DNA of 35,925 bases from Desulfobacterales bacterium (GCA_030065275.1 JASJCV010000001.1:1-35925), one strand, 5' to 3'; positions 1,566 through 30,977 are shown, counted from the stretch's first letter. Numbers and translations: made by a program. Notes: a model not told the origin generated them from the letters alone.

Positions 1566-1576
1566 AAGGAAGACGC

Positions 1577-1984
1577 ATGACCACTGATACCGATACCCAC
1601 CGCAAGACGATCGGCTATATTCTCTGGATCTTCGGTTTCATGGGGGCCCACCGCTTTTACTATGGCCGGGCGATTACGGGGACGATCTATTTTTTCACGC
1701 TGGGGCTGCTCTTCGTGGGCTGGATCATCGATCTTTTCCTCATTCCCGCCATGGATGCCAAGGCGGATCAGCGGTTCATGCCTGGCCCCCTGGATTACAA
1801 CGTGGCCTGGATCCTGCTGACCTTTCTGGGGGTGCTGGGGATTCATCGGTTCTATATGGGCAAATGGCTGAGCGGCGTTATTTATCTTTTGACCGGGGGG
1901 CTCTTCCTGGTGGGCATCGTCTACGACTACTGGACGCTGAACGAGCAATTGACGCTGATCAACAGGCGCACACAGCATAACTGA
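1577..1984 (+). CDS. TM2 domain-containing membrane protein
   Basis: Internal ATG at 1577 after an A/G-rich RBS; two TM2-like repeats (GYILWIFGFMGAHRFYYGRAITG and LLTFLGVLGIHRFYMGKWLSG). Confidence 0.85.
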   Translation: MTTDTDTHRKTIGYILWIFGFMGAHRFYYGRAITGTIYFFTLGLLFVGWIIDLFLIPAMDAKADQRFMPGPLDYNVAWILLTFLGVLGIHRFYMGKWLSGVIYLLTGGLFLVGIVYDYWTLNEQLTLINRRTQHN

Positions 1985-2099
1985 GCGTTGAGGCCCGAAA
2001 GCGCCCTTGCGTGCGGATCCCTGCGGTGTCGACAAGCCGTGCGACCACCGCCGGACATGGCAAAGAATTGATTTAACCCGCCCGAACCGGACACCTTCC

Positions 2100-3326
2100 A
2101 TGGAGATCGTCCTGGCCATATTCGGTAGCGAGGGGGATGTGCGGCCCAATCTGGCTCTGGGGCGCGCGCTCCGAAACCGGGGTCACCTCGTCCGGGTGCT
2201 CTCCTCACCCGACAGCCGGAACCTGGCCGCTGCGGCCGGGCTGACCTTTCAGCCCGTGGGCAGCGACGTCCGGGCGCTGATGGCTGCCAAGGCCCGCGAT
2301 TACATCGACCGGCCGGTACGGGCGGCGGGCCCAATGACCCGGGCGCTTAAAACCGATCTGCGCAAACAGTTTCAGGAGCTGCCCGGGCTGATCGGCCGGC
2401 CGGACATGGTAATCGGCTCGGGCCTCATGCTCGCGGCGCCTTCGGTGGCCGAAGCCATCGGCCGGCCTTACCGCCACACCCTGTTCACCCCGGTCGCCCT
2501 GCGCTCCTCGGCCCACGGGCCGGCCGTCTTCCCTTTCCAGCGAGGGGCCCCTCTGCTGAATCGCCTGCTGTGGGGCCTGGCCGACACCGGCCTGAATGCC
2601 AGCCTGCGGGGGTTGCTGAACCGTGGCCGCCGCCGTCTGGGACTGGCACCCGTCACCAGCGTCTACGCCCATCTGGCTGCCCGTGCGCTACTGGCTGTCG
2701 ATCCGGAGCTGGCCCCGCTGCCCGCCGATGCCGCACCTTCCTGCCCCCAGACCGGCTACTGGCACCTGGCCTCCGAATCCGGCCTGCCACCCCGGCTGGA
2801 ACGTTTTTTGGACCGGGGTCCGGCGCCGGTCTATATTGGCTTTGGCAGCATGGGGGATCCGCACGCCAGACGCACGGCACGGGCGGTGGCGCGGGCCGTC
2901 CGCTGGGCGGGCGTTCGCGCCGTGGTGCAGGCCGGTTGGGCAGGGTTGCAGGTCCGGGAAAATGAAAAGGTGCTGGCGGTTTCCGGGCGTCTGCCACACG
3001 ATCGGCTGTTCCCGCGCATGGCCGCTGTCGTGCACCACGGCGGGGCCGGGACGGTATCGACGGCGGCACGTGCCGGGGTGCCCCAGGTGCTGGCGCCGCA
3101 CCTGCTGGACCAATATTACTGGGGGCGCCAGGTACACCGCCTGGGGCTGGGCCCCCGTCCGCTGGCGCGCCGCAATCTTGCGCCCCGGGCCCTGGCGGCC
3201 GCCCTCCGGGAGGTGGTCGACGACCCGGGCTACCGGCATCGCGCCGCGGCGCTGGCCGTGCCGCTCGGGGCGCGCGACGGTGTTGCCGAGGCCGTGCGCC
3301 TGCTGCCCGCGTTGGCGGCCGCCTGA
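2100..3326 (+). CDS. Glycosyltransferase, MGT/UGT-like (GT1 family)
   Basis: N-terminus MEIVLAIFGSEGDVRPNLALGRALRNRGHLV and C-terminal VVHHGGAGTVSTAARAGVPQVLAPHLLDQYYWG motif of GT1 glycosyltransferases. Confidence 0.85.
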   Translation: MEIVLAIFGSEGDVRPNLALGRALRNRGHLVRVLSSPDSRNLAAAAGLTFQPVGSDVRALMAAKARDYIDRPVRAAGPMTRALKTDLRKQFQELPGLIGRPDMVIGSGLMLAAPSVAEAIGRPYRHTLFTPVALRSSAHGPAVFPFQRGAPLLNRLLWGLADTGLNASLRGLLNRGRRRLGLAPVTSVYAHLAARALLAVDPELAPLPADAAPSCPQTGYWHLASESGLPPRLERFLDRGPAPVYIGFGSMGDPHARRTARAVARAVRWAGVRAVVQAGWAGLQVRENEKVLAVSGRLPHDRLFPRMAAVVHHGGAGTVSTAARAGVPQVLAPHLLDQYYWGRQVHRLGLGPRPLARRNLAPRALAAALREVVDDPGYRHRAAALAVPLGARDGVAEAVRLLPALAAA

Positions 3327-3329
3327 CGC

Positions 3330-4106
3330 CTAACAGCCTTTCCAGACCGCCTGGCGCTTGGTGAGGAAGGCGTCCACGCCCTCACGCGCATCCTCGGTCA
3401 CACACAAAGACGCGAACATTTCGTTGGAATAGACCAGGGCCTCGGGGAGCGGCATATCGGTCATGCGGTGGATGGCCTGTTTGCCCATCTGCACGGCCAC
3501 CGGGCTCTTGGCGGCCAGTTTGGCGGCCATCGCCGTGGTGGCGGCTTCCAACTGGTCGTCCGGCACCACCTGGTTGACGAGGCCCCATTCCAGGGCCTGC
3601 CCGGCGCTGATGAGATCGCCCAGAAGGAGCAGTTCCATGGCCCGCTTGCGAGGCACCGTCCGGGTGAGGGGAACGGCCGGGCCCATACAGAACAGGCCGA
3701 TATTCACGGCCGGCACCGCAAAGCGGGTGTCGTCGGTGATCACCGCCAGATCGGCCGCCAGGACGATGCCGGCCCCGTTGGCCACCGCGAAGCCCCGCGC
3801 CGAGGCAATGACGGGTGTTTTCATCTTCGCGATGGTCAGCACCATCTCCTCCATGCGGGTCACCCAGGTGCGGTAATCACCATGGGTTTTGCCGGCGTAT
3901 TCCGAAAGGTCGATCCCGGCGCAGAAGGCGCGGCCGGTGCCGGCCACGACGATCACCCGTACGCCGGGATCGTCGTCCAACGCCAGCAGGGCCTGGTTGA
4001 GTTCCACGGCCAGCGGTGTGCTGAAGGTGTTCATTTGTTCGGGACGGTTGAGGGTGATGGTGCCGATATAGTCGGCGGTCTCGACCAGGATAGGACGGTT
4101 GGTCAT
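3330..4106 (-). CDS. Enoyl-CoA hydratase/isomerase family protein
   Basis: Crotonase fold motifs: GTITLNRPEQMNTFS, AGTGRAFCAGIDLSEY, ARGFAVANGAGIVLAADLAVITDDTRFAVPAVNIGL. Confidence 0.9.
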   Translation of the reverse strand: MTNRPILVETADYIGTITLNRPEQMNTFSTPLAVELNQALLALDDDPGVRVIVVAGTGRAFCAGIDLSEYAGKTHGDYRTWVTRMEEMVLTIAKMKTPVIASARGFAVANGAGIVLAADLAVITDDTRFAVPAVNIGLFCMGPAVPLTRTVPRKRAMELLLLGDLISAGQALEWGLVNQVVPDDQLEAATTAMAAKLAAKSPVAVQMGKQAIHRMTDMPLPEALVYSNEMFASLCVTEDAREGVDAFLTKRQAVWKGC

Positions 4107-4375
4107 GGCGGCGCCTCCAATCGAAGGGCGCTGCTCGCGCCCGTAAAGGGTGAATGACGAACGGCAACCTGATGTCTTAAGCTATAGCCAAGAGCCACGC
4201 CGGGGTCAACCGGCTCCCGGAGGCTCACGGGAGGGCTTCATCCGGCGGCGACGGCGGCCTCTTTCATAAACCGATTGGAACGTATATGATCCACGCCTTT
4301 GCGCGCCGGCAAATCCCGCGGCCGAGTGGGGCGCCCGGCCGATCGAAGGCCGGCGGGGTTGCCCGCGCGACATCC

Positions 4376-4403
4376 TTGACATTAAACGATCGCGTCGTAT
4401 ATT
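4376..4403 (+). promoter_or_regulatory. Sigma70-type promoter for the DUF134-mrp operon
   Basis: TTGACA (4376-4381), 16-nt spacer, TATATT (4398-4403), about 40 nt upstream of the DUF134 ATG with a GGGAGG RBS. Confidence 0.65.
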
Positions 4404-4441
4404 CAACGTTTTGAGAATATTCCCATAAATGGGAGGTGTTC

Positions 4442-4873
4442 ATGCGACCGCAAAAAAATCGTATCGTCGCTTTCAATCCGGATGTGAGCTATTTCAAGCC
4501 CCGGGGTATCCCCCTGATGGACCTGGAGGAGGTTCGCCTGACCGTGGACGAATGCGAGGCGCTGCGGCTTTCCGATCTGCTCGACCTCTCCCATGAGGAC
4601 GGGGGCAAACAGATGGGCGTCTCGCGGGCCACATTCGGACGCATTCTGCAGAATGCCCGCCGGACGGTGGCCGACGCCCTGATCAACGGCAAAGCCATCA
4701 ACATCGAGGGCGGCAACTACAAGATGACCACGAAGGAGCGGGTTTTCGAGTGCGATGGCTGCACCAAGCGCTGGAGCGAACCGCAGGGCACCGGCCGTCC
4801 CCGGAAATGTCCGGCCTGCGGCAGCAGAAAGCTGTTTCGCATCAGTACCCGCAAGACGGGCTCGCCGGGATGA
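4442..4873 (+). CDS. DUF134 family DNA-binding protein with C-terminal zinc ribbon
   Basis: FNPDVSYFKPRGIPLMDLEEVRLTVDECEALRLSDLLDLSHEDGGKQMGVSRATFGRILQNARRTVADALINGKAI is the DUF134 HTH core; C-terminal FECDGCTKRW...RKCPACGSRKLF has two Cys pairs. ORF track starts at a GTG at 4436; ATG at 4442 is better placed relative to the RBS. Confidence 0.88.
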   Translation: MRPQKNRIVAFNPDVSYFKPRGIPLMDLEEVRLTVDECEALRLSDLLDLSHEDGGKQMGVSRATFGRILQNARRTVADALINGKAINIEGGNYKMTTKERVFECDGCTKRWSEPQGTGRPRKCPACGSRKLFRISTRKTGSPG

Positions 4874-4964
4874 CGCCCGTCTTCGGATAACGCCTTTGAA
4901 TTCCCCGACCACGACGGCCGGGGCGTTTGGAATGATCCACGCCAATACGCAGGAGAAAGCAGCA

Positions 4965-5807
4965 ATGACGCAAATTATGGGTTCCCCGGATGAAGCCTCG
5001 AAGGGGCAGGCTTCCGGGGTGGACAAAGACGAAGAAGTCAAAGCCTCTTTGAACCGCATCAAACACAAGCTGGTTATCATGAGCGGCAAGGGCGGCGTCG
5101 GAAAAACCAGCACGTCGGTCAATCTGGCCATCGCGCTGGCGCGCCAGGGCCGCAAAGTCGGACTCATGGATGTTGATCTCCACGGTCCCGACGTACCCCG
5201 GGTGCTGGGACTGACCGCCATGCTGGGCCTCAGCGCCAACCAGAAGCTGGACCCGCTGCACTACAACGATTATCTCAAGGTGGTTTCCATCGAGTCCCTG
5301 ATGGCCAGCAAGGACGATGCCGTCATTTGGCGCGGCCCGATGAAATATTCGGCCATCCGCCAATTTATCTCCGACGTGGATTGGGGCGATCTCGATTTCC
5401 TGCTGATCGACTCGCCACCGGGCACGGGTGACGAACCGCTGACCGTGGCCCAGACCATTCCGGATGCCAAGGCCGTGATCGTGACCACGCCCCAGGAAGT
5501 CTCCCTGGCGGACGTGCGCAAATCCATCAGCTTCTGCCACACGCTGAAGATGGAAATTTTCGGGTTGGTGGAGAACATGAGTGGATTCGTCTGCCCGCAC
5601 TGCGGGGAAGGGGTGGACATCTTCGGTGTCGGCGGCGGGGAAAAGACCGCCCGGGAGGCCCGGATCGACTTCCTGGGCCGCATCCCCCTGGACCCCAATG
5701 TGGTGACCTGTGGGGACGGCGGCAAATCCTATCAGGAGGCCTTTCCCGAAAGCCCGGTTACCCGGGCCTACGAGGCCATCGCCGCCAAAATCGGAAAGCT
5801 GACTTAG
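4965..5807 (+). CDS. mrp: Mrp/NBP35 family P-loop ATPase
   Basis: MSGKGGVGKTSTSVNLAIALARQGRKVGLMDVDLHGPDVPRVLG, DFLLIDSPPGTGDEPLTVAQ, and C-terminal CPHCGEGVDIFGVGGGEKTA. Confidence 0.92.
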   Translation: MTQIMGSPDEASKGQASGVDKDEEVKASLNRIKHKLVIMSGKGGVGKTSTSVNLAIALARQGRKVGLMDVDLHGPDVPRVLGLTAMLGLSANQKLDPLHYNDYLKVVSIESLMASKDDAVIWRGPMKYSAIRQFISDVDWGDLDFLLIDSPPGTGDEPLTVAQTIPDAKAVIVTTPQEVSLADVRKSISFCHTLKMEIFGLVENMSGFVCPHCGEGVDIFGVGGGEKTAREARIDFLGRIPLDPNVVTCGDGGKSYQEAFPESPVTRAYEAIAAKIGKLT

Positions 5808-6215
5808 AACGCCCGGTTCCCCGGTCGGCGCGCCAACTGCGGATGCATTCAACATGCAAGCGGGGGCGACAGCATGGAAACGGTCTTGATCGTGGGATGC
5901 TGACGAAGGATGGACGTTGCCTGTATCGGTCGCTCCCGGTGCATGCCGGGCTACAACCGGCGGTAAGAGGCCCCTGGTGCATAGCGCGAGACGTCGGCCG
6001 GACACGTGGGTGCGACCGGTTGCGGGAACCGCGCCGGGCCCGGATGAACCTGCGGAACAGCGCATTTCGTATAGGAACACGCGGCGCCCTGCATCCGCGA
6101 CAATGGCCCCCGCGCCGAGACCCAAATGAAAAAGATTGATTCCAGGTCCACGGTGGATGTGATCGAGCGGATCCGCCTATCCATCCCGGAAAATATTATG
6201 GCCGCATGAGGATGC

Positions 6216-17507: not shown

Positions 17508-18467
17508 TTATGCCGGATTCTGCTTCGCACGGCCGGTGGATTCCATTATTTCACGGGCCAGCGCCATATAGGCCTGCCCGGAATGGCTCTGGGCGTCGTA
17601 ATGGTAGACGGGCATGCTCATGATCTGGGCCTCCCGTAATCGTCCGTCGTGGGGGATGACCGTCTGATAAAGTCTTCCCCGGTAGAGTTCCTGCAATTTG
17701 GACTGGATCACGCAGGCCGCGGTTTCATCCGCGTTGAACATCGTGACCAGGATGCGGGCCTCGATCGCCGGATTGGTTTTGCGCCGTATGAGGTCGATGA
17801 TGCCCAGGATCTGATCGACGCCGTGGGTGGACAGGTAGTCGCACTGGGTCGGAATGATCACGTGGTCCGAGGCGGTCAGGGCATTCAGGGTGAAAAATTC
17901 GATCGACGGGGGGGTGTCGATGAGGATGTAGTCGTAACGGTCTTTCACCAGGTTGAGGCGGTCGTTGAGGATGTATTCGTAGTCGTCGGCCCCGAAGTAC
18001 TTCTTGTTGAGGAGCACCATGTTTTTGCTGGCCGGCAGGAGCCACATGTCCGGGTAGGGGGTTTCCACTACGGCCCGGTCCATGGCCTGGGGACCTTTCT
18101 GGAGCACGTCGTAGAACGAGGCGGCTTCGCGGGCGCCGAGGAGAATGGACAGGTTGGCCTGAACATCGAAGTCGATGAGCAGCACTTTTTTGCCGCGCCG
18201 CGTCAGGGCCAGCCCCAGGTTGAGGCAGGTCGACGTCTTGGCGACCCCGCCCTTCTGGTTGCTGACGGCGATCGTATTGCCCTGGTGGGCGATGTGCTTG
18301 GCGGCCGACAGGTCGACAAAGGGGATTTCCTGGATGCGCACCGGACGGTAGGCCGTGAAAACGTGCCGGCAGCGGGAGCAGCGCGCGGTGAAGCTTTTGG
18401 TGTTGGGCTTGATCCGATTCTCGTCCAGGCGGAAGCGGCTCTGGCATCTTTCGCAGATAACTATCAT
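17508..18467 (-). CDS. ParA/Soj-family ATPase with N-terminal MJ0042-like zinc finger
   Basis: MIVICERCQSRFRLDENRIKPNTKSFTARCSRCRHVF zinc finger followed by AVSNQKGGVAKTSTCLNLGLAL, LLIDFDVQANLS, ILIDTPPSIEFFTLNAL. Confidence 0.9.
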   Translation of the reverse strand: MIVICERCQSRFRLDENRIKPNTKSFTARCSRCRHVFTAYRPVRIQEIPFVDLSAAKHIAHQGNTIAVSNQKGGVAKTSTCLNLGLALTRRGKKVLLIDFDVQANLSILLGAREAASFYDVLQKGPQAMDRAVVETPYPDMWLLPASKNMVLLNKKYFGADDYEYILNDRLNLVKDRYDYILIDTPPSIEFFTLNALTASDHVIIPTQCDYLSTHGVDQILGIIDLIRRKTNPAIEARILVTMFNADETAACVIQSKLQELYRGRLYQTVIPHDGRLREAQIMSMPVYHYDAQSHSGQAYMALAREIMESTGRAKQNPA

Positions 18468-18477
18468 GGGCGCTCCT

Positions 18478-19635
18478 TCATCCGGCCATGATCGAACTGA
18501 TGGCCTGGGGCAGTTCAATCTCATCCAGCACGATGTCCACCGTTCCCTGCTGGATAGCGTTATGGGTCAGGTTGGGGTAGACGCAGCACTGGGTGTCCTG
18601 GGCCAGGGTGACACCCGAACACTCCCGGATCTGGCCGAATCCCTCGGCCCCGTCGTTGCCGATGCCCGTGAGCAGGACACCCACCGTGTTCTGCTGGAAG
18701 ACTTCGGCCGCCGAGGTAAACAGCATGTCGAGGGGGACCGCATCCGGCCCGGCCGACTGGAGACAGGGTGTGCCCTCGCTATTCGTGGCGACGCGAACGG
18801 CGTTCTGGTACGAACTGATATAGCAGGTGCCCTGCTCGATGGGCATGCCGTCCCGGGCTTCACGGATGCGCCAGGGCACCGAGGCGTCGAACTGTTCGAC
18901 AAACGCGCCGATGATTTTCGGGGAGATCTCCTGGACGGCCACTACGGCAGCCGGCAGGGTGGGCGGCAGGTTGGCGAGCATCCGGATGACCGTGTTGGGG
19001 CCGCTCAAGGTCGTGCCGAGGGTCAGCAGGTATTCCAGCGGATGATAGCCGTAGAGATCGGGAAAATGGGCCTGCCGGTCCCAGCGATTAAGCCGGACAC
19101 GGCGGATATTGTCGAGGTTCACTGCGCTGGCCAGCTTGATGCGGTCGATGAGCTGCTGCCGGGATTGCTCGATATCGGTCGATACGGCCCCCGACGGTTT
19201 GGGGATGAAATCGACCACGCCCAGTCGGAGGGCATCGAAGGTGATGGCCCCGTCGCTGAACAGCGAGCTCAGCACCACGACCGGAACGGGCGACTCGATC
19301 ATGATGTGCCGGATGCTGGTCAGCCCGTCCATGATGGGCATGTCGATGTCGAGCGTGACCACGTCGGGGTCGAGGGCCTTGATCAGCTCCAGGCCCTCCT
19401 GACCGTTGCGGGCGGTGCCGACGATGCGCAACCGGGAATCGGTGGCGAGGACGTCCACGATGGCTTTGCGCATGAAAGCCGCATCGTCCACGACGAGCAC
19501 CTTGATTTCTTCCGCCGTCGCCTCTCCCGGGACCGGCCGATGCGATTCGACTTCACACCGCGGCGTGTTGCCGGCTTCAGCCCCCCCAGGCGGCAATGCG
19601 TGCGGCGATGTTGTGTGGTTCACATTCTTCATCAC
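18478..19635 (-). CDS. REC + CheB-like methylesterase homologue with degenerate active site (copy 1)
   Basis: Intact REC (VLVVDDAAFMRKAI, VVTLDIDMPIMDG, DFIPKPS); CheB-like domain LTLGTTLSGPNTVIRMLANLP...VVAVQEISPKIIGAF...LLTGIGNDGAEG. Confidence 0.85.
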   Translation of the reverse strand: MMKNVNHTTSPHALPPGGAEAGNTPRCEVESHRPVPGEATAEEIKVLVVDDAAFMRKAIVDVLATDSRLRIVGTARNGQEGLELIKALDPDVVTLDIDMPIMDGLTSIRHIMIESPVPVVVLSSLFSDGAITFDALRLGVVDFIPKPSGAVSTDIEQSRQQLIDRIKLASAVNLDNIRRVRLNRWDRQAHFPDLYGYHPLEYLLTLGTTLSGPNTVIRMLANLPPTLPAAVVAVQEISPKIIGAFVEQFDASVPWRIREARDGMPIEQGTCYISSYQNAVRVATNSEGTPCLQSAGPDAVPLDMLFTSAAEVFQQNTVGVLLTGIGNDGAEGFGQIRECSGVTLAQDTQCCVYPNLTHNAIQQGTVDIVLDEIELPQAISSIMAG

Positions 19636-21364
19636 AGAGATCTTCCTCGATAGTGGCGTTCAGCGACGCCGGCATTATACAGGTGGCGCGTTCCTGAATC
19701 AGCAGCCGTCCGCCGTTTTCGCGCATATAGCGCAGCCCTTCCAGATTGCCGGTTTCGGCCCCGGACAAGAGCACCACCTGCAGCCGGTCGCCCAAACAGT
19801 CAGAAGCCGAGAAGAGCAGTAAATCGAAATAGCTCGGGCCGTAGCCGAAATCCTGGCGGCCCTCCTGCATCCGCAGGATCACCTCCGTGCTTTCCTCGCC
19901 GAGGCGCAGCGAACAGCCGTGTGTGCCCAGGTAGGATTGGCCGCGCCGCAGCGAGACCTCCCTGGAGACGATGTTGATCGGCGCCGGGGCGTAGCCCTGC
20001 AGATGGGACGCCAGGGCCGGCAGGAAAGCGGGGGGGATGGATTGCAGCCCGATCAGGGCGGTGGGCGCATCGGCCGGCAGTCCGGCAAGCATTTGCCGCA
20101 TGCTCCCATGACCGCTGCAGCCCGCCGATACGATGACGAGATGATCGGCCGGCAGGGCGTCGCCGACCGGGCCGCGCCCGGCATGATCGGCCGGTGTGCA
20201 GCGCAACCGACGAAAAGCCCTGATATCGGCGGAGGCGGCCTGCTGGATGCGCTCCACGATTTTTTGCTGCTGCAGCAGCAGGTCTTTGTTTTTGACCGGC
20301 TTGGCCATGAAATCCACGGCACCCAGGTCGAGAAATGAGAGAACCGTATCCGGCGCGCCGCTGCCCACGTTGCTCATCACCACCACAGGACAGGGATTTT
20401 TGATCATGATGTGCTTCAGGGCGGCTTTGCCGTTCATGACCGGCATGTTGACATCCAGCAGGATGAGGTCGGGACGCTGCGCCTCGGTGAGTTCAAGGGC
20501 CTCCTCGCCGTTGCGGGCAATGCCCGTCACTTCGATGTCGCCCGTGGCGGACAGCATGCTGCCCAGAATCTTGCCCATGACCGTGGAGTCCTCGACCAGC
20601 AGGACGCGCAGTTTATCCGGCGCCAGGGTGACCATGTCTTCCTCTTCGGCGGCGCTCTCCTCTTCGGCCAGCATGGCGGCCTCATCCGCGCGGCGGGCGG
20701 CTTCCATCAGCAGGAATTCGTAGCTTTTCTTGATGGTGGCCACCTCGCTGACCCCGCCGTCAAGCGTTTCGAAACCGCCGCTCTTCCAGCCCAGAATCGC
20801 GTAGAAGGCCTCCTCGCCGGTCACCTGGCCGCAGACAGCGTGGGCGATCTCCCCGTCCCATATGTAGATCGTGCCCTGCAGGGCGCCTTTTGTCACCCGG
20901 ATCGTGATGGTGGCCGAGGAGAGGCAGCACATCTGGATCAGATCGTCGAGCTGGATATTCTTGAGCGTTCCGGCAAATCCCTGGGCATGCCCCTCGGAAA
21001 GCGTGTTGATACGCCGGCCCAGTTCGGCGGCGTCGCAGGGCCCCTCGACGATCTGTAGATTGGATTGGGACGGTATGGCGCGGCGCACCTCGGCGCTGTC
21101 GGGGGGCAGGATCAGGATCGTTTCCAGGTGGGGATACCCGGCCATGACTTCCTTCAGATAGGGCTGGGGGAACGCATCCCCGGCGGCGACCCCGACCACT
21201 GCCAGGAAGATGTCCTCGCGCGCGAGGATCTCAAGCGCATGGGCGCCGGTCTCGGCGGTCAGCAGCCGATAGGAGACTGTATCGGCATACAGGTGCTCCG
21301 CGAGCGCTTCACGCAACGGCGCTTCACAGTCGATCAGCAGTATTTTTTTGAGGCCTGCTTCCAT
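19577..21364 (-). CDS. Pseudo-REC / DUF4388 (PATAN) / REC / CheB-like protein (copy 2)
   Basis: N-terminal REC-like without phospho-Asp; GFAGTLKNIQLDDLIQMCCLSSATITIRVTKGALQGTIYIWDGEIAHA is DUF4388; intact REC VLLVEDSTVMGKIL/LILLDVNMPVMNG/DFMAKPVK; degenerate CheB domain VSAGCSGHG/LQSIPPAF/LLSGAETGN. Confidence 0.82.
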   Translation of the reverse strand: MEAGLKKILLIDCEAPLREALAEHLYADTVSYRLLTAETGAHALEILAREDIFLAVVGVAAGDAFPQPYLKEVMAGYPHLETILILPPDSAEVRRAIPSQSNLQIVEGPCDAAELGRRINTLSEGHAQGFAGTLKNIQLDDLIQMCCLSSATITIRVTKGALQGTIYIWDGEIAHAVCGQVTGEEAFYAILGWKSGGFETLDGGVSEVATIKKSYEFLLMEAARRADEAAMLAEEESAAEEEDMVTLAPDKLRVLLVEDSTVMGKILGSMLSATGDIEVTGIARNGEEALELTEAQRPDLILLDVNMPVMNGKAALKHIMIKNPCPVVVMSNVGSGAPDTVLSFLDLGAVDFMAKPVKNKDLLLQQQKIVERIQQAASADIRAFRRLRCTPADHAGRGPVGDALPADHLVIVSAGCSGHGSMRQMLAGLPADAPTALIGLQSIPPAFLPALASHLQGYAPAPINIVSREVSLRRGQSYLGTHGCSLRLGEESTEVILRMQEGRQDFGYGPSYFDLLLFSASDCLGDRLQVVLLSGAETGNLEGLRYMRENGGRLLIQERATCIMPASLNATIEEDLCDEECEPHNIAARIAAWGG

Positions 21365-21393: not shown

Positions 21394-24300
21394 TCAGAGT
21401 ACCGCGGCTTTGGCTTTCTTTTGTGCCTCCCGGTCGATGGAAAGATTGACAAGCTCGTAGACATCCAAAATCAGCGAAATATGGCCGTCGCCCAGGATCG
21501 TGGCGCCGGAGAACCCGCTGCGCTCCTGGAGGTAATCTTCCAGCGGCTTGATGACGACTTCCTCCTGTCCCAGGAGTTCGTCCACCACGAGCCCGACGCG
21601 TTTCAGCCCCGTGCTGACCACGACCACGAACGCCCGGTCGATCGAGCCGGCGGCGTTCATGTTGAAAAGCCCGTCCAGACGCACCAGGGGCAGGGTGCTT
21701 TCACGCAGCTGCATGACTTCGACGCCCTCGATGGTGTTGATCTGCCTCTCGTCGATCCGCAAGGTCTCCTCGACGGTGGCCAGCGGTATGGTGAACAGTT
21801 CGCCGCGCACCTTGATCAGGAGCGCTGGAATGATCGCCAGGGTCAGGGGGATCTTGATCCGGAAACGGGTTTCGACGCCGGGGGTGGTGTCGATTTCGAT
21901 GGTGCCGTTGAGTTTTTCGATGTTTTTCTTGACCACGTCCATGCCTACGCCGCGGCCGGATGTGTGGGTGATTTTCTCGGCCGTGGAAAAGCCGGGCAGC
22001 ATGATGAGGCTGCTCAGGTCCTTGGGTGCCATGCGATCGAGTTCGTCGCTGCTTGCAAAGTCGCCCGCCAGGGCTTTGGAGCGAATGCGGTCGAGATCCA
22101 GGCCGCGGCCGTCGTCGGCGATTTCGATCACCACATGGTTGCCTTCGTGGTAGGCCTCCAGCCGGATGGTGGCGGTTCCGGGCTTGCCCTGGCGTTGCCG
22201 CTCGGCGGTCGGTTCCACCCCGTGATCCACCGCGTTGCGGATGATGTGGATCAACGGATCGGAGATCTCTTCGATGACCATCTTGTCGAGCTCGGTCTCT
22301 TCGCCGCGGATATCCAGTTCGACCTTCTTGTCGGTGTCGCGCACCAGATCGTAGACCAGCCGTGGGTAGCGGTTGAACAACTGCGCAATGGGCAGCATGC
22401 GCACTTTCATGACCCCTTCCTGCAGTTCGTTGGCCACCCGGCCCAGGGCCACCGTGGCCTCGCTCAGGCGGAAGGTCAGCCCCTTGACCTGCTTCATCTC
22501 GCGGGTGTCGAGCTTGAAGCTTTGCTTCAGGTTCTGCTGCAGTTCGCGCATCTCGCTGAAGAGCTGGGCAAACCAGGCCCGGCTGACCACCAGTTCGCCC
22601 ACCTGGTTCATGAGGGCGTCGATTTTGCCGGCGTCCACCCGGATACTCTGTTTGAGAATCCTGTCGCCAATGCGATCGGACCGGCGGCGGCCGGCGTTAG
22701 CGGGATCGCGGCGATCCGTCGATGCCGCCCGATCCGTGACCGGGGCGACGTCTTCGTCCTCGACCGCGGCCGTCGCCGTAATGTCGGCGACCTCGGCAAT
22801 GATATCCGCGGCCGGCGCCCCGGGTTCATCCCCCTCGCCCGGCAGGTCGTTTTCGCTGTCGTCAAACAGCGGAATCTCGAAGTCGGCGTCATCCGGATCG
22901 CGGCTTCCGGGGGCAGGGTCGGCGTCGGCTATCAGCGGTGCGGACGGGGAGATGTCCTGAAGGCCCTGGATGCGGTCCAGGAGATCGTCGATGGCGTTCT
23001 CCTCCGCGCCCGTCTGCTCCAGATCCTCGGTCAGCAGACCGATACGGTCCCGGGCCGCGATCAGCAGCTCGATCGTGGCTTGATCCGCCGGTCTCTCGCT
23101 GCGCCGCATCTGGTCCAGCAGGTTTTCCAGCTGGTGGGAAAGCTCGGCGATGCGCGCCATGCCAAGGTATTCGGCCGCGCCCTTGATGGTATGCGCCGAG
23201 CGGAAGATGTCGTCCAGGGTGGTTGGGTCCTCGGGCGATTTTTCGAGCTGCAGCAGGCTGTTCTCCATTTCCTCGAGATGCTCCATGGTTTCCACCAGGA
23301 AGTCATGGAGGAGGCTGTTCTCCGGTTTTTCGCCCTGTGCTGCGACGGTGGCGGTCGCCACTTCGTCTTCGAAAACCGAAACAAGAGCCTCAAGGTCTTC
23401 CGAATCCTCAACGGCGGCTTCCGGGCGTTCTGCGGCCGCCGTATCTTCGGAACCGGAGGCTTGCCCGGAATCGGGGACCGCATCGGCGTCGGTTGTGAGC
23501 AGGGCGGCGTCGGTCGCCCCTTCCGCCAGTCTGATTTGCGGGAACCGTTCGACCACGGCGGCGATCTTGGCTTCCAGATCGGCAGCGATGAAGGCGGGCA
23601 GAAACGCATCCTCGCCTTCGGCCAGACGCGCGCGGGCGTCCTGAATGGCAGCCGTCCAGTCGTCGTAGAGGGCGGTCAGTTTGGAATAGCCCATATAGTT
23701 CGCCGAGGAACGCAGCGGATCGATGTTGAGCAGGCAGGCGGCCAGAATGCCATCGCGTTCCGAAGCCTCGGCGCAGGCCAGCGCGGCGGCCCGGGCCTTG
23801 AGGGCCCCCAGGCTCTCCTCGAGCTGCTCCAGGAAGATCGTGAAGAGCTCTTCGTCGTATTCCTCTTCATAATCGTCGTTGCTGGATGGCATGGCCGCGC
23901 TCGCAGCATCATCCGTCAACGCGGCCGCTGCTGCGCTCGTCAGGCTTTCCGTTGCGGAAGACGCCGGCTCCGGGGCGGGGTTGGTGCCGGTTGCAGCGTC
24001 TGGAGCGGGGTCGCCCCCGTCGCTTGAAATGGTTGCATGCGACGTCGAGAAAAGCTCCGCGGCGATTTCAGCCGTCCCGGCGGCGCGCTGGGGGGCGATC
24101 CCCTGACGGCGGCAGTCGTCGAAAGAGCGGCTGAGCCGGTCGAAGAGATCGGAGGCTTCGGCGTCGGTCGGCACCTGCGGCGCAAAGCGGTTTTCAAGAT
24201 CGCCATCGTCTGCAGCGGCTTCATCTTCCATGCCAGGCACCGGGGGTCGGTTGCCGGCTTGGGCGGCCTCCGGCGCGGCTGTTTCTATCGGGGCTTGGCG

Positions 24301-25092
24301 ATCGATCTGAACCTTTGGGAAACGAACGGCCACGCTGTCCAGGTTGGCTTCCATGTAGTCGCGGATGAAATCGGGCATAAAGCTGTCGTCGCCGGTTTCG
24401 AGACGCTCGCGCGCGTGGCGGATGGACTCACTCCAGCCGTCGTAGAGGCCGGCGAGGGTGTCGTAGCCCATGTAATTGGCCGATGCGCGCAGCGGCTCCA
24501 TGCGTTTCAGACAGTTCGCCAGGATGGCCAGCCGGTCGTCGTGGTCGGCCGTTGTCAGGGCCCGGGTGTTCGCCGCCAGCGCGGTGAGACCCTCTTCGAG
24601 CTGTTCGAGGAAGATGGCGAAGAGTTCTTCGTCGAACTCTTCCTCGTAGGTCGTCGCGCCGCCGGTTTCACCCGACGGCGGGGTGCTGACCGGGATTTCG
24701 TCTTCGCGTCCGCTCCGTGGCTTCAAGGCTTCGAGGCGTTCAACCAGATCCGCGATCACGGTTTGCTCGGTCTGCGTGGATTCCAGGTCTTCGACCAGCT
24801 GGCCCATCCGGTCCCGCACGGCCATCACCAGGTCGACGGTGTTGCGATCGGCGACAAATTCGTTGCGGCGCAGCCGGTCCAGCAGATTTTCGAGCTTGTG
24901 CGAGAGCTCGGCCAGACCCTCCAACCCCAGATATTCCGAGGCGCCCTTGATGGTGTGCACGGATCGGAAAATATGGTCGAGGGGCTCCCGGTCATCGGGA
25001 TTGGCCTCAAGACGGAGAAGGTGGCTTTCCATCTCTTCAAGATGTTCCACCGTTTCCACGATGAAATCCTGAAGCAGGGAATAGTCCGTCAT
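21394..25092 (-). CDS. cheA: CheA-family histidine kinase with four tandem Hpt/Hpt-like domains
   Basis: HTIKGAS and HTIKGAA Hpt motifs, two additional PLR(A/S)SANYMGY modules, N box HIIRNAVDHGVE, G1 IADDGRGLD, PGFSTAEKITHTSGRGVGMDVVK, C-terminal CheW-like domain. Confidence 0.93.
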   Translation of the reverse strand: MTDYSLLQDFIVETVEHLEEMESHLLRLEANPDDREPLDHIFRSVHTIKGASEYLGLEGLAELSHKLENLLDRLRRNEFVADRNTVDLVMAVRDRMGQLVEDLESTQTEQTVIADLVERLEALKPRSGREDEIPVSTPPSGETGGATTYEEEFDEELFAIFLEQLEEGLTALAANTRALTTADHDDRLAILANCLKRMEPLRASANYMGYDTLAGLYDGWSESIRHARERLETGDDSFMPDFIRDYMEANLDSVAVRFPKVQIDRQAPIETAAPEAAQAGNRPPVPGMEDEAAADDGDLENRFAPQVPTDAEASDLFDRLSRSFDDCRRQGIAPQRAAGTAEIAAELFSTSHATISSDGGDPAPDAATGTNPAPEPASSATESLTSAAAAALTDDAASAAMPSSNDDYEEEYDEELFTIFLEQLEESLGALKARAAALACAEASERDGILAACLLNIDPLRSSANYMGYSKLTALYDDWTAAIQDARARLAEGEDAFLPAFIAADLEAKIAAVVERFPQIRLAEGATDAALLTTDADAVPDSGQASGSEDTAAAERPEAAVEDSEDLEALVSVFEDEVATATVAAQGEKPENSLLHDFLVETMEHLEEMENSLLQLEKSPEDPTTLDDIFRSAHTIKGAAEYLGMARIAELSHQLENLLDQMRRSERPADQATIELLIAARDRIGLLTEDLEQTGAEENAIDDLLDRIQGLQDISPSAPLIADADPAPGSRDPDDADFEIPLFDDSENDLPGEGDEPGAPAADIIAEVADITATAAVEDEDVAPVTDRAASTDRRDPANAGRRRSDRIGDRILKQSIRVDAGKIDALMNQVGELVVSRAWFAQLFSEMRELQQNLKQSFKLDTREMKQVKGLTFRLSEATVALGRVANELQEGVMKVRMLPIAQLFNRYPRLVYDLVRDTDKKVELDIRGEETELDKMVIEEISDPLIHIIRNAVDHGVEPTAERQRQGKPGTATIRLEAYHEGNHVVIEIADDGRGLDLDRIRSKALAGDFASSDELDRMAPKDLSSLIMLPGFSTAEKITHTSGRGVGMDVVKKNIEKLNGTIEIDTTPGVETRFRIKIPLTLAIIPALLIKVRGELFTIPLATVEETLRIDERQINTIEGVEVMQLRESTLPLVRLDGLFNMNAAGSIDRAFVVVVSTGLKRVGLVVDELLGQEEVVIKPLEDYLQERSGFSGATILGDGHISLILDVYELVNLSIDREAQKKAKAAVL

Positions 25093-25173: not shown

Positions 25174-25875
25174 TTAGTGGGCCCGGTCGACCAGTTCCTC
25201 CGTGGCCACGGCTTTGCGGCCGGTCAGAAGAACGTCATAGAGGTCGAACGATCGGGCGACGGTTTGCATGGTCCCCAAGTTCTGTCGTGCCGATTGCAGA
25301 TGGGTGTGAATCACCTTGTCCATCGGGGGGCTCTGCGGATCATCGAGCTGCCGGTGGATGCCCTCGAGGGCATCCATGGCGCTGCCGGTCTGGTTCCAGA
25401 CCAGCAGGAGGAGTTCCTGCAGATTGACGCCCATGTCGTTGAACAGCTCCCCGATGCGGCCGATTTCGTCCGTGTCGTGCACCGGCACGGTGGCATCCAG
25501 GCGACCGTCGGCCATGTGGCCGGCGGCGGTCGCCGTGTTCTCGAGCGGGTGCAGAATGCGCCGTGCGACATAGAGGTAGAGCGCACTCAGCACGGCGAGC
25601 GCCAGCAGCGTGCCCCCCATCAGGCCGTAGCGGACGCGTTGCACCAGCTGCGCATGCGCGTTTTCCCCCGCCTCGGTCCTGGGCTCCAGCATCATAAACG
25701 GCGAGCTTCGATCGACCCCTGTCAGCTGCACGGTCAAGCCGCCGCCGGTCAGCAGCGTGAGCAGCATGGCCAGAAGAAAGCCGGCCCGAATTCTGCGGCG
25801 CAGCGATTTGGTCCGCCGCCTGTTGGACGGCGTCGTCGCGTCGATTGTGTTGTTCGTATCGAAGTTCATGGCCAT
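25174..25875 (-). CDS. HAMP-domain membrane protein without output domain (second copy)
   Basis: Two TM helices, VARRILHPLENTATAAGHMADGRLDATVPVHDTDEIGRIGELFNDMGVNLQELL HAMP, helical C-terminus. Confidence 0.78.
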   Translation of the reverse strand: MAMNFDTNNTIDATTPSNRRRTKSLRRRIRAGFLLAMLLTLLTGGGLTVQLTGVDRSSPFMMLEPRTEAGENAHAQLVQRVRYGLMGGTLLALAVLSALYLYVARRILHPLENTATAAGHMADGRLDATVPVHDTDEIGRIGELFNDMGVNLQELLLLVWNQTGSAMDALEGIHRQLDDPQSPPMDKVIHTHLQSARQNLGTMQTVARSFDLYDVLLTGRKAVATEELVDRAH

Positions 25876-25941: not shown

Positions 25942-26295
25942 CTAAAGCCGATTGATCAGCTCTAGAATCTCCTTGGAACGGTGCTTGTTCAAATATCCCT
26001 TGGCCCCCAGTTTCAGGGCATCCGCGCCATACTCGGCCTCATCGAGATTGGACAGAAATATGATGGCGGCCTCGCTGTCGTAGGCCAGGATCTCCCGGGC
26101 CGCGGTAAATCCGTCCATGCCGCGCATGGTGATGTCCATGGTGACGAGGTCGGGTTTGAGTTCCTTGTACAGGGTCACGGCGGCGCTGCCGTCCTTGGCC
26201 TCCCCGACCACCTCGTGCTGGCCGGTCTGGAGGGTCGTTTTGATCATCCGGCGCATGATGGTGGAATCGTCCACGATCAGGATTGTCTTGCCCAT
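25942..26295 (-). CDS. cheY: CheY-like single-domain response regulator
   Basis: MGKTILIVDDSTIMRRMIKTTLQ...PDLVTMDITMRGMDGF...LGAKGYLNKHRSKEILELI. Confidence 0.9.
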   Translation of the reverse strand: MGKTILIVDDSTIMRRMIKTTLQTGQHEVVGEAKDGSAAVTLYKELKPDLVTMDITMRGMDGFTAAREILAYDSEAAIIFLSNLDEAEYGADALKLGAKGYLNKHRSKEILELINRL

Positions 26296-26363
26296 GGCTG
26301 CTTGCCTTTCACACATATTCTCGGATCGCCTCGCTCCGATCCTTCCGATCGGCAGCGGCCCCA

Positions 26364-26897
26364 CTACGGAGCCACCCGCATTTCCCGGCCGACCGTGTTG
26401 ATTTCACGCAGTTTCTTGATTTCCTCCACCAGCAGGATCCTGTCAAAATCGAGCAGGATCAGCAGCCGCTGGTCGATGCGGCACACGCCGGTGATGTACT
26501 GGCTGTGCAGACCGGAGACGACGATGTCAGGCGGCGGTTTGATGCTGTTGGCGGGCACCTTGAGCACCTGCGTGACCGAGTCCACGATGAAGCCGGTCAC
26601 CCGGCCCTCCACATTCAGGATCATGATCCAGATGTTGCCGTCGGAGGCCTCGGCGTTGCGCAGGTTGAGACGGCGGCGCAGGTCGATTACGGGAATGATG
26701 TTGCCGCGCAGGTTGATGACGCCCTCGATGAAATCCGGCGCGTTCGGGATCGGGGTGATCGGGGTTTCCCGGATGATTTCCTGAACCATCAGGATATCTA
26801 CCCCGAACATTTCGCGGCCGATTGCAAAGCCCACGAGCTGCATGAGCTTTTCTTTTTCTTCCTGGTCCGTTTCCTGGTTCAGATACGGCTCGTTCAT
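26364..26897 (-). CDS. cheW: CheW coupling protein
   Basis: MQLVGFAIGREMFGVDILMVQEIIRETPITPIPNAPDFIEGVINLRGNIIPVIDLRRRLNL. Confidence 0.93.
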   Translation of the reverse strand: MNEPYLNQETDQEEKEKLMQLVGFAIGREMFGVDILMVQEIIRETPITPIPNAPDFIEGVINLRGNIIPVIDLRRRLNLRNAEASDGNIWIMILNVEGRVTGFIVDSVTQVLKVPANSIKPPPDIVVSGLHSQYITGVCRIDQRLLILLDFDRILLVEEIKKLREINTVGREMRVAP

Positions 26898-26964
26898 GGG
26901 ATGCTTTCTCCTTGACGGGTGCCCGCCGTGGCGCCGGCGGACACCCGGATCGTATGCATGGGGC

Positions 26965-29580
26965 CTAAACCTCGTTTGCCGGAGCGGTTTCGGACGCGTC
27001 ACCCACCTTGAACTGTTCCACCTGACGGGTCAGGGATTGGGACAGCTTCTGCAGTTCGTCGGTGATTTCCACGACCACGCCCGCCCCTTCGCGGGTCTGG
27101 GCGGCGGCTTCGGCCGACTCCCCGGTGATCTCGGTGAGCTTCTGGGAACGCTCGGCCTGGGTGTCGGTCATGTCCCGCATGGCGTGGGTGCGTTCCACCA
27201 CACCCTGCATCTGCTGGCCGATTTCGCTCATTCCCTGGTTGGCGTTGACGATCAGCTCGGAAATGGCGTTCGACTTCTCCACCAGCGCGTTCAGGGCCGC
27301 CTGGGCGGCCGCACGGCGTTCACCCTGCTGACCGGCCATGTCGGCAATTTCGCGGGCCAGGTTGTTGAGGTCTTCCATCATGGTGTTGACCTCCTGGGTC
27401 CCCTTTTCGATGTTGTCCGCCGCACGGGCGATCTCCTGGATGGCCTGCATGTTGGTACCGCCACCCTGGGCGATTTTTTCCAGGGCCTGGCGGGAGCGGT
27501 CGGAGAGCTGGGTACCTTCCGCGACCCGGGCCGAAGAGTCTTTGATCAGCTGGGTAATCTCCTTGGCGGCTTCCGAGGAGCGCTGGGCCAGCTTGCCGAC
27601 TTCGTCGGCGACGACGGCAAAACCCTTGCCGTGGGCGCCGGCGCGGGCGGCCTCGATGGCGGCGTTCAGCGAGAGCAGGTTGGTCTGCTCCGCGATTTCG
27701 GTAATAACGGTGATGATTTCGGAGATCTGTTCCGAAGACTCGGCAATGGCGCGCATACCATCCACGGTGGCGGACACCGATTCGGTGCCCTCCTCCACCG
27801 CCTGGAGGGCGTCGCTGGCAAAGGTCATGGCGTTGGTGGTGGCGCCGGTGAGTTCCTGCACCGCCGTCTCCATGCGTCCGACGGCTTGGGTAACCGCCTC
27901 CACCTGCTCGCCCTGCTGCTGGGCGGTGGCCACAACCTTGGCGCCGGTTTCACCCATCACCTCCACGCGGTCGGTGGCGGTGTTGGCTTCTTCCACCTGG
28001 CTGGCGGAGGCTTCGGTGACCGAGCCCATATCGACCGTCAGGGATTCGATGTTGGTGTTGGAGATGTCGGCCGCTTCACGCTGGGATTCCGAGGAACCCG
28101 CGACCTCGCCGGCTGTGGCCCGCATGTCCTCCACGGTCTGCTGCATGATGCGCATCTGCTCGGCCTGGCGCTCGGCGCGCTCCCGGTTGGAGCTGGCACG
28201 CTGGGCCACGTCGCCCGAGTAGCTTTCCACGTCCCGGGCGGCCTTGGAGACGAGTTGGAAGGATTCGCGCAGCAGGCGCATCATCTTGTTGAACTCGCCG
28301 GCCATAATGCCGACCTCGTCCTTGCTGCCCACCGGCACCTCGATGGTCAGGTCGCGCTCGCGGGCCACCGTCCTTACGGCGTTGGCGATGGCGATGATGG
28401 GGTTGGCGATGCCGCGCGCCACCCATAGACCGAGCACACCGGTGATAAGGCCGGCCACGACGGCGATCGACCAGAGAACGACCTTGGAGCGGTCGCGGAT
28501 CTTTTCGATGATCGTGGCGGATTCGAGGTATTCCTCCTCGTAGGAACCGGCGCCGATAATCCAGTCCCAGGGTGCGAAATACATCAGGCGAACAGTCTTG
28601 TAGCGCGCCTTGGGGTCGCCCGCGTTCTTCCAGGGGTAGCGGTGCTCGGCCACTTCGCCCGGTTTCAGAACCTTGGTTTTGGCCACGATTTCCTGGATGA
28701 AGAGGTTGCCGTCGGTGTCCTTGGCCTGGGAGATGTCTTCGCCGTCACGGGTTCCGTTTTGGGAAATGACGTAGTGGCCCTTGCTGTCGAGCACGTACAC
28801 GTAGCCGGTCGTCCCCACCTTGATGTCGTAGATGGCTTCACGCAGACTCTTGACACTTTCCTGGGGCAGGCCCACGTAGAGCATGCCCACGATGCGCTTG
28901 TCCTTGCTGTAGATGGGCTCGTAGGCCGTCAGGTACCACTTGTTGACCACATAGGCGCGGCCGACGAAGGTCTGGCCCCGCAGCACGGTGCTGATGACCG
29001 GGTTGGGCTTGCCGTCCGGGTTGGTGCGCGGGATATAGGTGCCGATGGCGCGCGTGCCGTCGTCCTTGACCACGTTGGTGGCCACGCGCAGCATGTCTCC
29101 GCCGCTGTTCATGCGCTGGAAGATCGTGCAGGTGAGGTCTTCGGCCAGGTTGCGGACCTCGTCCACCACAGGCACCGAGGCCGTCAGGTCGGTGGTCTGG
29201 CCGAACCAGCTGTTGCCCACGAGCATCTTGGGAAGCTCCACCGGGACCATGGTCTTGGTGTACTGGTTGACCGCGTTCCAGGTGACGTTTTCGTAGGCGA
29301 AGGCGATGCCGCCGTTGTCCGTAACCACCCGGCGGGCCACGTTGAGGTCGCTGCGCAGGGATTTGCGCAGCAGTTCGTCCTGGGTCTGGACCATCCGGTA
29401 GACGCCTTCGGCGATGTGGTCGAGGTCGATGCGGGCCAGTTTGATACTTTCCTGCCGCGCCACCTCGAACGTCTCGTTGCTCTGCTTGGTCACGAAGATA
29501 CCGGCAATGATCAGCGGCACGAAGGTCGCGAACATACCGAGCATGACCAGTTTGGTTCTGAGTTTGAGGTCTCTAAGCAT
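26965..29580 (-). CDS. Methyl-accepting chemotaxis protein with extracytoplasmic Cache domain
   Basis: Periplasmic segment ([27 protein letters not shown]... [16 protein letters not shown]), HAMP, and signalling hairpin [48 protein letters not shown]. Confidence 0.93.
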
Positions 29581-30781
29581 GGGTCTTTCCTCCCAATCGG
29601 TGGTGTTGATTGATGAAAAGGGTTTTGATCGCCGTGGCGATTTCCGAATCGTTGAGCGGCCGGCCGCTCCGGCACAGGCGCAGGGCCGACAAGGCCATTT
29701 CCTTGAACAGGCAGGTCCTGGGGTCCTGGATCAGCACTTCGCCCCCGACGCGGGCGATTTCGGCGGCCCCCTCGGCCCCGTCCACGTCCTTGCCGGTCAG
29801 CACGACCGCGACCGTGCGGGCGGCCATGACCTCGGAAACCGACAGCATGAGCATGTTGATGGCTCCGCGGCGTTCGGGAAAAGGGGAGGGGTGGACGCGC
29901 AGGGACGTTCGGTCGCCGTCCCGCACCGCCGTGACATATTCGCTTCCCGAGGCCAGATAGCAGGTGCCCGCCTCGAGCGGTGTGCCGTCCGCGGCCCGCC
30001 GGACCCGCAACGCGCTGTTGGCGTCGAGGTAATCCACGAAAGCGTCGAGATGGGCCTCGGCGGCGTATAAAACCGCCAGGTAGGCCGCCGGCCAGGTTGG
30101 ATCGAGCTGGGGGATGATTTTCAGCAGGGCGCCGTAACCGCCTTCGGAGGCGCCTAAAACGACGCAGCGCTCGATGGCCTTGGCCAGCACCCCCCCATTC
30201 CGCGGGCGGGTGCGCAGCAGGCGCACGTTGTCCATCTTGACCCCGGCGGCCAGCTTGACCTTGTGCTTGATCAGGCGTTCCTGGTCTTCGAGGCTTGCGT
30301 TATCGCGCTGGGACGGTTTGGGCATGAAATCGATGGCGCCCAGACGCAGGGCATCGAAGGTCTCGGTGGCCCCGTCGCGGGTCAGGGCGCTGATCATGAT
30401 GGTCGGCGTGGGGCGTTTGATCATGATATGCTTCAGGGTGGACAGCCCGTCCATTTCGGGCATTTTGATGTCCAGGGTGATCACGTCGGGCACGATCGCG
30501 GCAAGCATGTCCAGGGCCTCGCGGCCGTTGGCCGCTTCGCCCACCACCTGGAACCGTTCGTCGGCGTCAAACATCTGACGGACCACCTTGCGAATCAGAC
30601 GGGAATCATCGACGATCATCAGGCGGATGGGCGTCTCGGCGGGTGCGGCGACCGGGGCGGGCGCGTCAGGGACCTTGAGGGTCTCCTCGCAACCGTCGCA
30701 GGCCAGCAGGGCCTCGCTGCCGCTGTTCTGCGGGCATCGGATCTCATGCTGCCGGCCGCACTCTTCACAAAAAATGATCAA
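29573..30781 (-). CDS. Zinc-ribbon + REC + CheB-like protein (copy 3)
   Basis: TTG start (30781) with an AGGGGAAA RBS gives [18 protein letters not shown]...[12 protein letters not shown] zinc ribbon; [37 protein letters not shown]; CheB-like [13 protein letters not shown]...[13 protein letters not shown]. An upstream ATG at 30823 is also open. Confidence 0.83.
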
Positions 30782-30977
30782 AACGTTTCCCCTGCCTCGG
30801 CCACCGCGTTTTCCAGGAGGCACTGCGGTCGGCGGCCCGTTATGTTGGCACCGGTCGAATGAAGGTTTACTGCTGGATTGGTTCTCAACATGCCTCGCTG
30901 TGTCTCGTCTCCCGTCTTATGTTTTCGACCGGATAACCCGGTGACTTGAGCGCCCGGGGTCTTCCGATCCATGGGAT

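Follow-up and report, generated by a model that had tools for sequence, protein, structure and literature searches.

Histidine-less, Hpt-related modules located between the Hpt domain and kinase core in a family of CheA proteins

What role is played by Hpt-like domains of a CheA kinase in which the phospho-histidine is missing? This question is raised by a CheA-encoding ORF found within a 35,925-nucleotide stretch of DNA from a Desulfobacterales bacterium (GCA_030065275.1 JASJCV010000001.1:1-35925), here termed the window. An earlier note had described two closely similar, His-less modules lying between two canonical Hpt domains in this protein, considered the pairs to be a duplicated two-domain unit and proposed that the modules bind regulators, such as the extra receivers of CheB-like proteins, without phosphotransfer. 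The ORF, its strand and the codons of both phospho-His residues, H46 and H634, had been correctly assigned in that note, and the two middle modules, M1 and M2, are indeed similar, sharing 54% identity, with the corresponding value for Hpt-A and Hpt-B being 60% (Table 1). In the encoded protein, Pfam identifies two Hpt domains together with H-kinase_dim, HATPase_c and CheW domains, and the ATP-binding boxes are intact (RNAVDH, DDGRGL and GRGVGMD); neither a P2 nor a receiver domain is present, and the middle region that comprises M1 and M2 is without any Pfam match. The closest named relative is the Desulfobacterales MAG MO_140.B12, in which the CheA is 72% identical and of the same architecture. 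The source genome (a 3.8-Mb assembly, 81% complete) also encodes a second CheA, of the ordinary type, on another contig.

Table 1. Positions, strand and character of the CheA, its parts and the neighboring genes in the window.
Feature	Position	Strand	Residues	Remarks
CheA-type kinase	21394..25092	(-)	1232 aa	Hpt - M1 - M2 - Hpt - P3 - P4 - P5
Hpt-A	24727..25083	(-)	4-122	AF2 boundaries; phospho-His H46
H46 codon	24955..24957	(-)		
M1, His-less Hpt-fold module	24307..24648	(-)	~149-262	
E199	24496..24498	(-)		M1 counterpart of phospho-His
SANYMGY family motif, M1	24463..24483	(-)	204-210	
Linker motif DLFDRLSRSFDD	24115..24150	(-)	315-326	
M2, second His-less module	23530..23871	(-)	~408-521	
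D458	23719..23721	(-)		M2 counterpart of phospho-His
SANYMGY family motif, M2	23686..23706	(-)	463-469	
Hpt-B	23002..23319	(-)	~592-697	phospho-His H634
H634 codon	23191..23193	(-)		
P3 dimerisation + P4 ATPase + P5 CheW-like	21445..22650	(-)	815-1216	N, G boxes intact
DUF4388(PATAN)-REC-CheB-like protein	19577..21364	(-)		CheB catalytic residues replaced, catalytic His = Ser; co-operonic
REC-CheB-like protein	18478..19635	(-)		catalytic Ser-His-Asp = Thr-Glu-Asp; co-operonic
Zn-ribbon ParA/MinD-type ATPase	17508..18524	(-)		conserved neighbor of module-CheAs
Small HAMP protein	25174..25875	(-)		conserved neighbor in many relatives
CheY-like single receiver	25942..26364	(-)		
CheW	26364..27002	(-)		
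Cache-type chemoreceptor (MCP)	26965..29580	(-)		
REC-CheB-like protein	29573..30823	(-)		catalytic His = Tyr

M1 and M2 are Hpt-related domains. When a profile of the module was compared by hhalign to a profile of the Hpt domains of the same proteins, the two aligned over 104 columns with a probability of 94.5% (E 7.5e-8), and the top PDB sequence matches of the module profile were to Thermotoga maritima CheA P1 (E 5e-5 and 7e-5). Pfam scans of single modules reached 2.2e-4 at best for Hpt (PF01627), with M1 alone yielding no match. AlphaFold2, supplied with 70 relatives, predicted the module to be a four-helix bundle (helices 2-36, 39-63, 66-87 and 94-112; pLDDT 91.8), in line with the Hpt-like layout that had been proposed. 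A Foldseek search of the PDB recovered CheA P1 (1tqg; TM 0.65/0.77, rmsd 2.9) with an E-value of 0.1, among other helical bundles, and gave no PDB match with an E-value below 0.05; with E-values this weak, the fold search supports the likeness to Hpt but does not prove it. When Hpt-A and M1 were modeled together, two confident bundles were obtained, connected through a disordered, low-confidence linker (residues 129-145), and the pTM of 0.54, low despite the two confident domains, indicates that their packing is not fixed.

In the column of the phospho-His, occupied by E199 in M1 and D458 in M2, the module family presents E, G, N, K, Q or D, with His being found in only one of 144 distinct members; the earlier claim that this residue is absent from M1 and M2 is thus confirmed. 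The presence of an alternative phospho-His elsewhere in the modules, also raised in the earlier note, was considered and ruled out, as no conserved His was found among the 144 sequences, the commonest His column containing this residue in only 26. Across the Hpt domains of module-containing CheAs, active-site residues H46, K49, H65 and E68 are conserved at levels of 97, 97, 89 and 98%, respectively; the module columns aligned with these positions (His, Lys at +3, His at +19 and Glu at +22) are unconserved, holding only 0.9-1.3 bits. The residues that are conserved in the modules are module-specific, with D7, E9, N57, Y58, M59, Y61, W71 and P105 being 90-100% conserved, Ser54 and Ser55 being 78 and 84% conserved, and Tyr58 and Tyr61 being invariant or nearly so. 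Likewise, D, E, L, I, N-Y-M, Y, W and F are each invariant at one or more positions in an alignment of 20 modules. Judging from the AF2 helix boundaries and the helix order of an up-down bundle, these residues would form a patch at a single end: DxELFxIF opens helix 1, SSANYMGY is found at the turn between helices 2 and 3, the W in helix 3 and FP after helix 4. The invariant residues include hydrophobic ones, some of which may simply belong to the core.

The module was detected in 13 genomes in a search of 58 relatives and at 76 loci when 84,980 species genomes were scanned. Carriers were found in Desulfobacterota, including cable bacteria, in Gammaproteobacteria (Chromatiales, Methylococcales, Competibacteraceae and Achromatium) and in one bin labelled Acidobacteriota. 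In a phylum-level sample, 27 of 297 genomes contain a match at 1e-6, with the weaker members (SAHYMDY, SSRYMDY) also lying between Hpt and P3 and also lacking the His. All of the approximately 90 module proteins examined, a few of which are cut by contig ends, are CheAs. Each contains one to four modules, placed throughout between Hpt and P3 or the kinase core, in the orders Hpt-M, Hpt-M-M, (Hpt-M)2-3 or Hpt-M4 and, in the clade of the window, Hpt-M-M-Hpt. As Pfam detected neither P2 nor another CheY-binding family in 41 such CheAs, the module can be said to occupy the place of P2. At one locus, L133 (G134:C99), the CheA is split, with Hpt and modules encoded by one ORF and P3-P4-P5 by the next (3188-6010 and 1512-3080, respectively; (-) strand). 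The family is thus widespread, strongly conserved and apparently unnamed: neither Pfam nor NCBIfam contains a model of the module, and a literature search of incomplete coverage returned no paper describing it. Because domain libraries miss the module, the CheAs that contain it are annotated as possessing one or two Hpt domains and a long, empty linker.

The linkers themselves contain a further element, with the motif [DE]xLFxKLSSALD, which reads DLFDRLSRSFDD in the window, being present in those of 40 of 83 module-containing CheAs (shuffled mean 0.06, maximum 1) and absent from the five module-less CheAs checked. In the CheA ORF of L088, three tandem copies are found at residues 1018-1060. 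The motif, which lies within disordered linkers, is possibly a docking peptide.

The description of the domain pairs as a duplicated two-domain unit holds for certain relatives and not for the window. Relatives L024, L061 and L065 present true tandem (Hpt-module)n arrays, and in L024, where the Hpt-module copies are 95%/94% identical, and L061, where the modules are 98% identical, recent tandem copying of the unit is evident. In the window, the order is Hpt-M-M-Hpt, and the modules are therefore not tandem copies of one two-domain unit. In a tree built from a short alignment, the clade with the Hpt-M-M-Hpt order contributed 12 modules, all of which fall into a single clade (100/99). Within it, M1 and M2 from the window and from its sister cluster with one another (99/94), tentatively suggesting homogenisation or a separate duplication in that lineage.

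The surroundings of the gene are also conserved. The order in the window, namely CheB-like, MCP, CheW, CheY, HAMP protein, CheA, PATAN-REC-CheB, REC-CheB and Zn-ribbon ParA, is seen again, in whole or for the most part, at most module loci. The REC-CheB-like protein encoded by 18478-19635 has orthologs at 56 other loci and, in these 57 proteins, the positions of the methylesterase triad are occupied by Thr (57/57), Glu or Asp (57/57) and Asp (56/57), which makes this protein a conserved pseudo-CheB or a re-purposed one. With all CheR matches of the source genome being on other contigs and the catalytic His being replaced in the CheB-like proteins, the cluster seems to be without a working methylation pair of its own. 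Two further observations were made. In the protein encoded by 19577-21364, residues 1-115, which precede PATAN, resemble by eye a degenerate receiver that has no acceptor Asp, with no Pfam match being obtained; at the edge of the cluster, the segment 30978-31613 (-) matches Sigma70 region 4 weakly and, again weakly, an ISXO2-like transposase domain.

Six relatives offer insight into the dependence of the module on phosphotransfer. In the CheAs of L110, L113, L115, L119, L123 and L127, the G2 box is degraded (e.g., ARIPGLD in place of GRGVGMD), and these proteins look like kinase-dead versions. The Hpt His is truly missing only in L113, L123 and L127, where Arg is found instead; upon inspection, most other Hpt domains with an atypical motif retain the His and differ at a neighboring position (HNVK, HAIK). 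Both modules, the only ones in their respective genomes, are kept in all six proteins, and their motif has hardly changed (SAHYMG in one case, SANYMS in another), showing that the module outlives phosphotransfer. The gene clusters of the six are conserved and encode an MCP-like protein as well as the Zn-ribbon ParA, which is kept in every case, and five of the six still include a PATAN-REC-CheB protein nearby. No CheY or CheW was detected within about 6 kb of these CheAs, and all six genomes lack a REC-CheB ortholog. Contendobacter/Competibacter, on the other hand, keep a typical module, CheY and CheB, yet contain no ortholog of the window ParA (best match 150 bits, generic). Taken together, neither the CheB-like proteins nor the window ParA is a universal partner. 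Indeed, no protein among the operon neighbors co-occurs with every module-bearing system and, as such, co-occurrence does not point to any partner. A link between the SANYMG or SANYMD variant of the motif and the type of ParA, which looked promising within the order, was dropped, as L101 and L129 pair D-type modules with a Zn-ribbon or related ParA.

In the explanation that we favor and consider probable, M1 and M2 are pseudo-Hpt tethering modules that act at the place of P2 through a new interface. In these Hpt-derived four-helix bundles, neither the phospho-His nor any of the phosphotransfer face has survived, and conservation has shifted to a new patch that would lie at one end. Carried on flexible linkers between Hpt and kinase core, where P2 is found in Escherichia coli CheA, they would tether a partner protein of the signaling array near the Hpt and core, neither taking nor giving phosphate. 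Fold and homology, the missing acceptor His, the lost active-site face, conservation, position, the lack of P2 and persistence beside a broken kinase all come from the computations themselves, whereas protein binding by the patch is what we infer. That modules are retained even where the kinase is broken speaks for a binding role that does not depend on phosphotransfer. The role without phosphotransfer that the earlier note had foreseen thus gains support from the absence of an acceptor His and from the persistence of the modules in such proteins. The same cannot be said of the example that it gave, the additional receivers of CheB-like proteins, as the defining partner, since PATAN-REC-CheB was not detected beside gammaproteobacterial or cable-bacterium module-CheAs, the REC-CheB ortholog is missing from the six genomes in which the kinase is degenerate, and the modules show no conservation of the face by which the Hpt fold docks receivers. 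Our first candidate for the partner, tentative and on balance somewhat doubtful, is a protein from the operon itself that bears a receiver and is bound via the bundle end, not via the old His face.

Several other explanations have to be weighed against tethering. P2 is the usual CheY dock of CheA, and the plant pseudo-phosphotransfer protein AHP6 provides an analogue for modules that would bind the receivers of CheY or CheB-like proteins via the canonical Hpt face, competing with or staging them. Such decoy docking, which corresponds to the idea in the earlier note, would agree with operons that encode CheY and several REC-CheB proteins and with modules standing where P2 is absent; the face around the His position, however, ranks with the most poorly conserved regions of the module, and six module-CheAs are without adjacent CheY and CheB orthologs (the nearby PATAN-REC-CheB of five notwithstanding), making this explanation unlikely, although receivers may be bound through another surface. 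We assign a similarly low probability to the modules and linker motif serving to dock the array onto the ATPase of the Zn-ribbon ParA type, in the manner of CheA-LID. An ortholog of this ParA adjoins module-CheAs at 56 loci besides the window and persists in the six kinase-degenerate systems, and, among the 58 relatives, all eight genomes with an ortholog scoring above 250 bits also contain the module. Nevertheless, Contendobacter/Competibacter manage without it, SANYMD-type systems carry a different ParA-family protein, and operon linkage alone could account for the co-occurrence.

No more probable is an intramolecular role, in which the modules would bind P3, P4, P5 or Hpt and so tune kinase activity or access to the Hpt. 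The modules are found only in CheA, nearly always in the same protein as the CheA body, but the unfixed packing of Hpt-A and M1, the persistence of modules beside a degenerate kinase and the split CheA of L133 all speak against such a role. Far less probable still is the use of another acceptor, with the well-conserved Ser and Tyr residues of SSANYMGY being modified, or Glu or Asp at the His position, as in the window, being modified or mimicking phosphate; in most members the His position is non-acidic (G, N, K and Q being common), and the His-less Hpt domains of ChpA are unphosphorylated in vitro (PMC10782961). It is just as hard to believe that the modules are inert remnants or spacers retained for length alone. 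While copies turn over and range in number from one to four, the motif hardly varies across the 144 sequences, drawn from Desulfobacterota and Gammaproteobacteria, a tighter constraint than a spacer would need. Returning to tethering, one could go further and propose that the module marks a class of chemosensory systems whose key output is independent of phosphotransfer, although the chances of this being so appear slim. Such a class would combine the pseudo-Hpt module, the Thr-Glu-Asp pseudo-CheB, the lack of an adjacent CheR and a dedicated ParA, with some of its kinases having shed the active site and kept the modules.

Comparison with known systems places the module family among, yet apart from, earlier examples. 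Like P2, the module is found at the same place in the chain, on flexible linkers, and is predicted to be without a part in phosphotransfer, whereas P2 is an alpha/beta domain and the module an all-helical relative of Hpt. In Vibrio, the CheA-LID is a CheA-specific extra domain that links arrays to ParP/ParC and thereby to ParA-type positioning (PMC5706961). The module is likewise a CheA-specific extra domain encoded near a ParA-type gene, although, compared by description, the ParA here is of the Zn-ribbon type. In Rhodobacter sphaeroides CheA3, two extra Hpt domains without His lie between P1 and P5, in a region called largely non-functional after the splitting of CheA (PMC10782961). His-less Hpt-fold domains within CheA are thus shared by the two systems; unlike CheA3, the window CheA retains intact P3-P5, and its modules are strongly constrained across Desulfobacterota and Gammaproteobacteria. 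Finally, ChpA of Pseudomonas aeruginosa (Pil-Chp/Tfp class) is a multi-Hpt CheA in which some Hpt domains lack the His (PMC10782961), as is true of the window CheA. ChpA, however, contains many Hpt domains and a C-terminal receiver, which the window CheA is without, and the module, compared by description, seems to be a family apart, which has a motif of its own and alternates with true Hpt domains. Accordingly, His-less Hpt domains of CheA were already known from ChpA and CheA3, and the module family is probably a separate, conserved variant of these. With the role of such domains being regarded as still to be worked out (PMC10782961), the family, having a defined conserved motif and variants of one to four copies, provides natural tests of that role, as do those relatives that combine a broken kinase with surviving modules.
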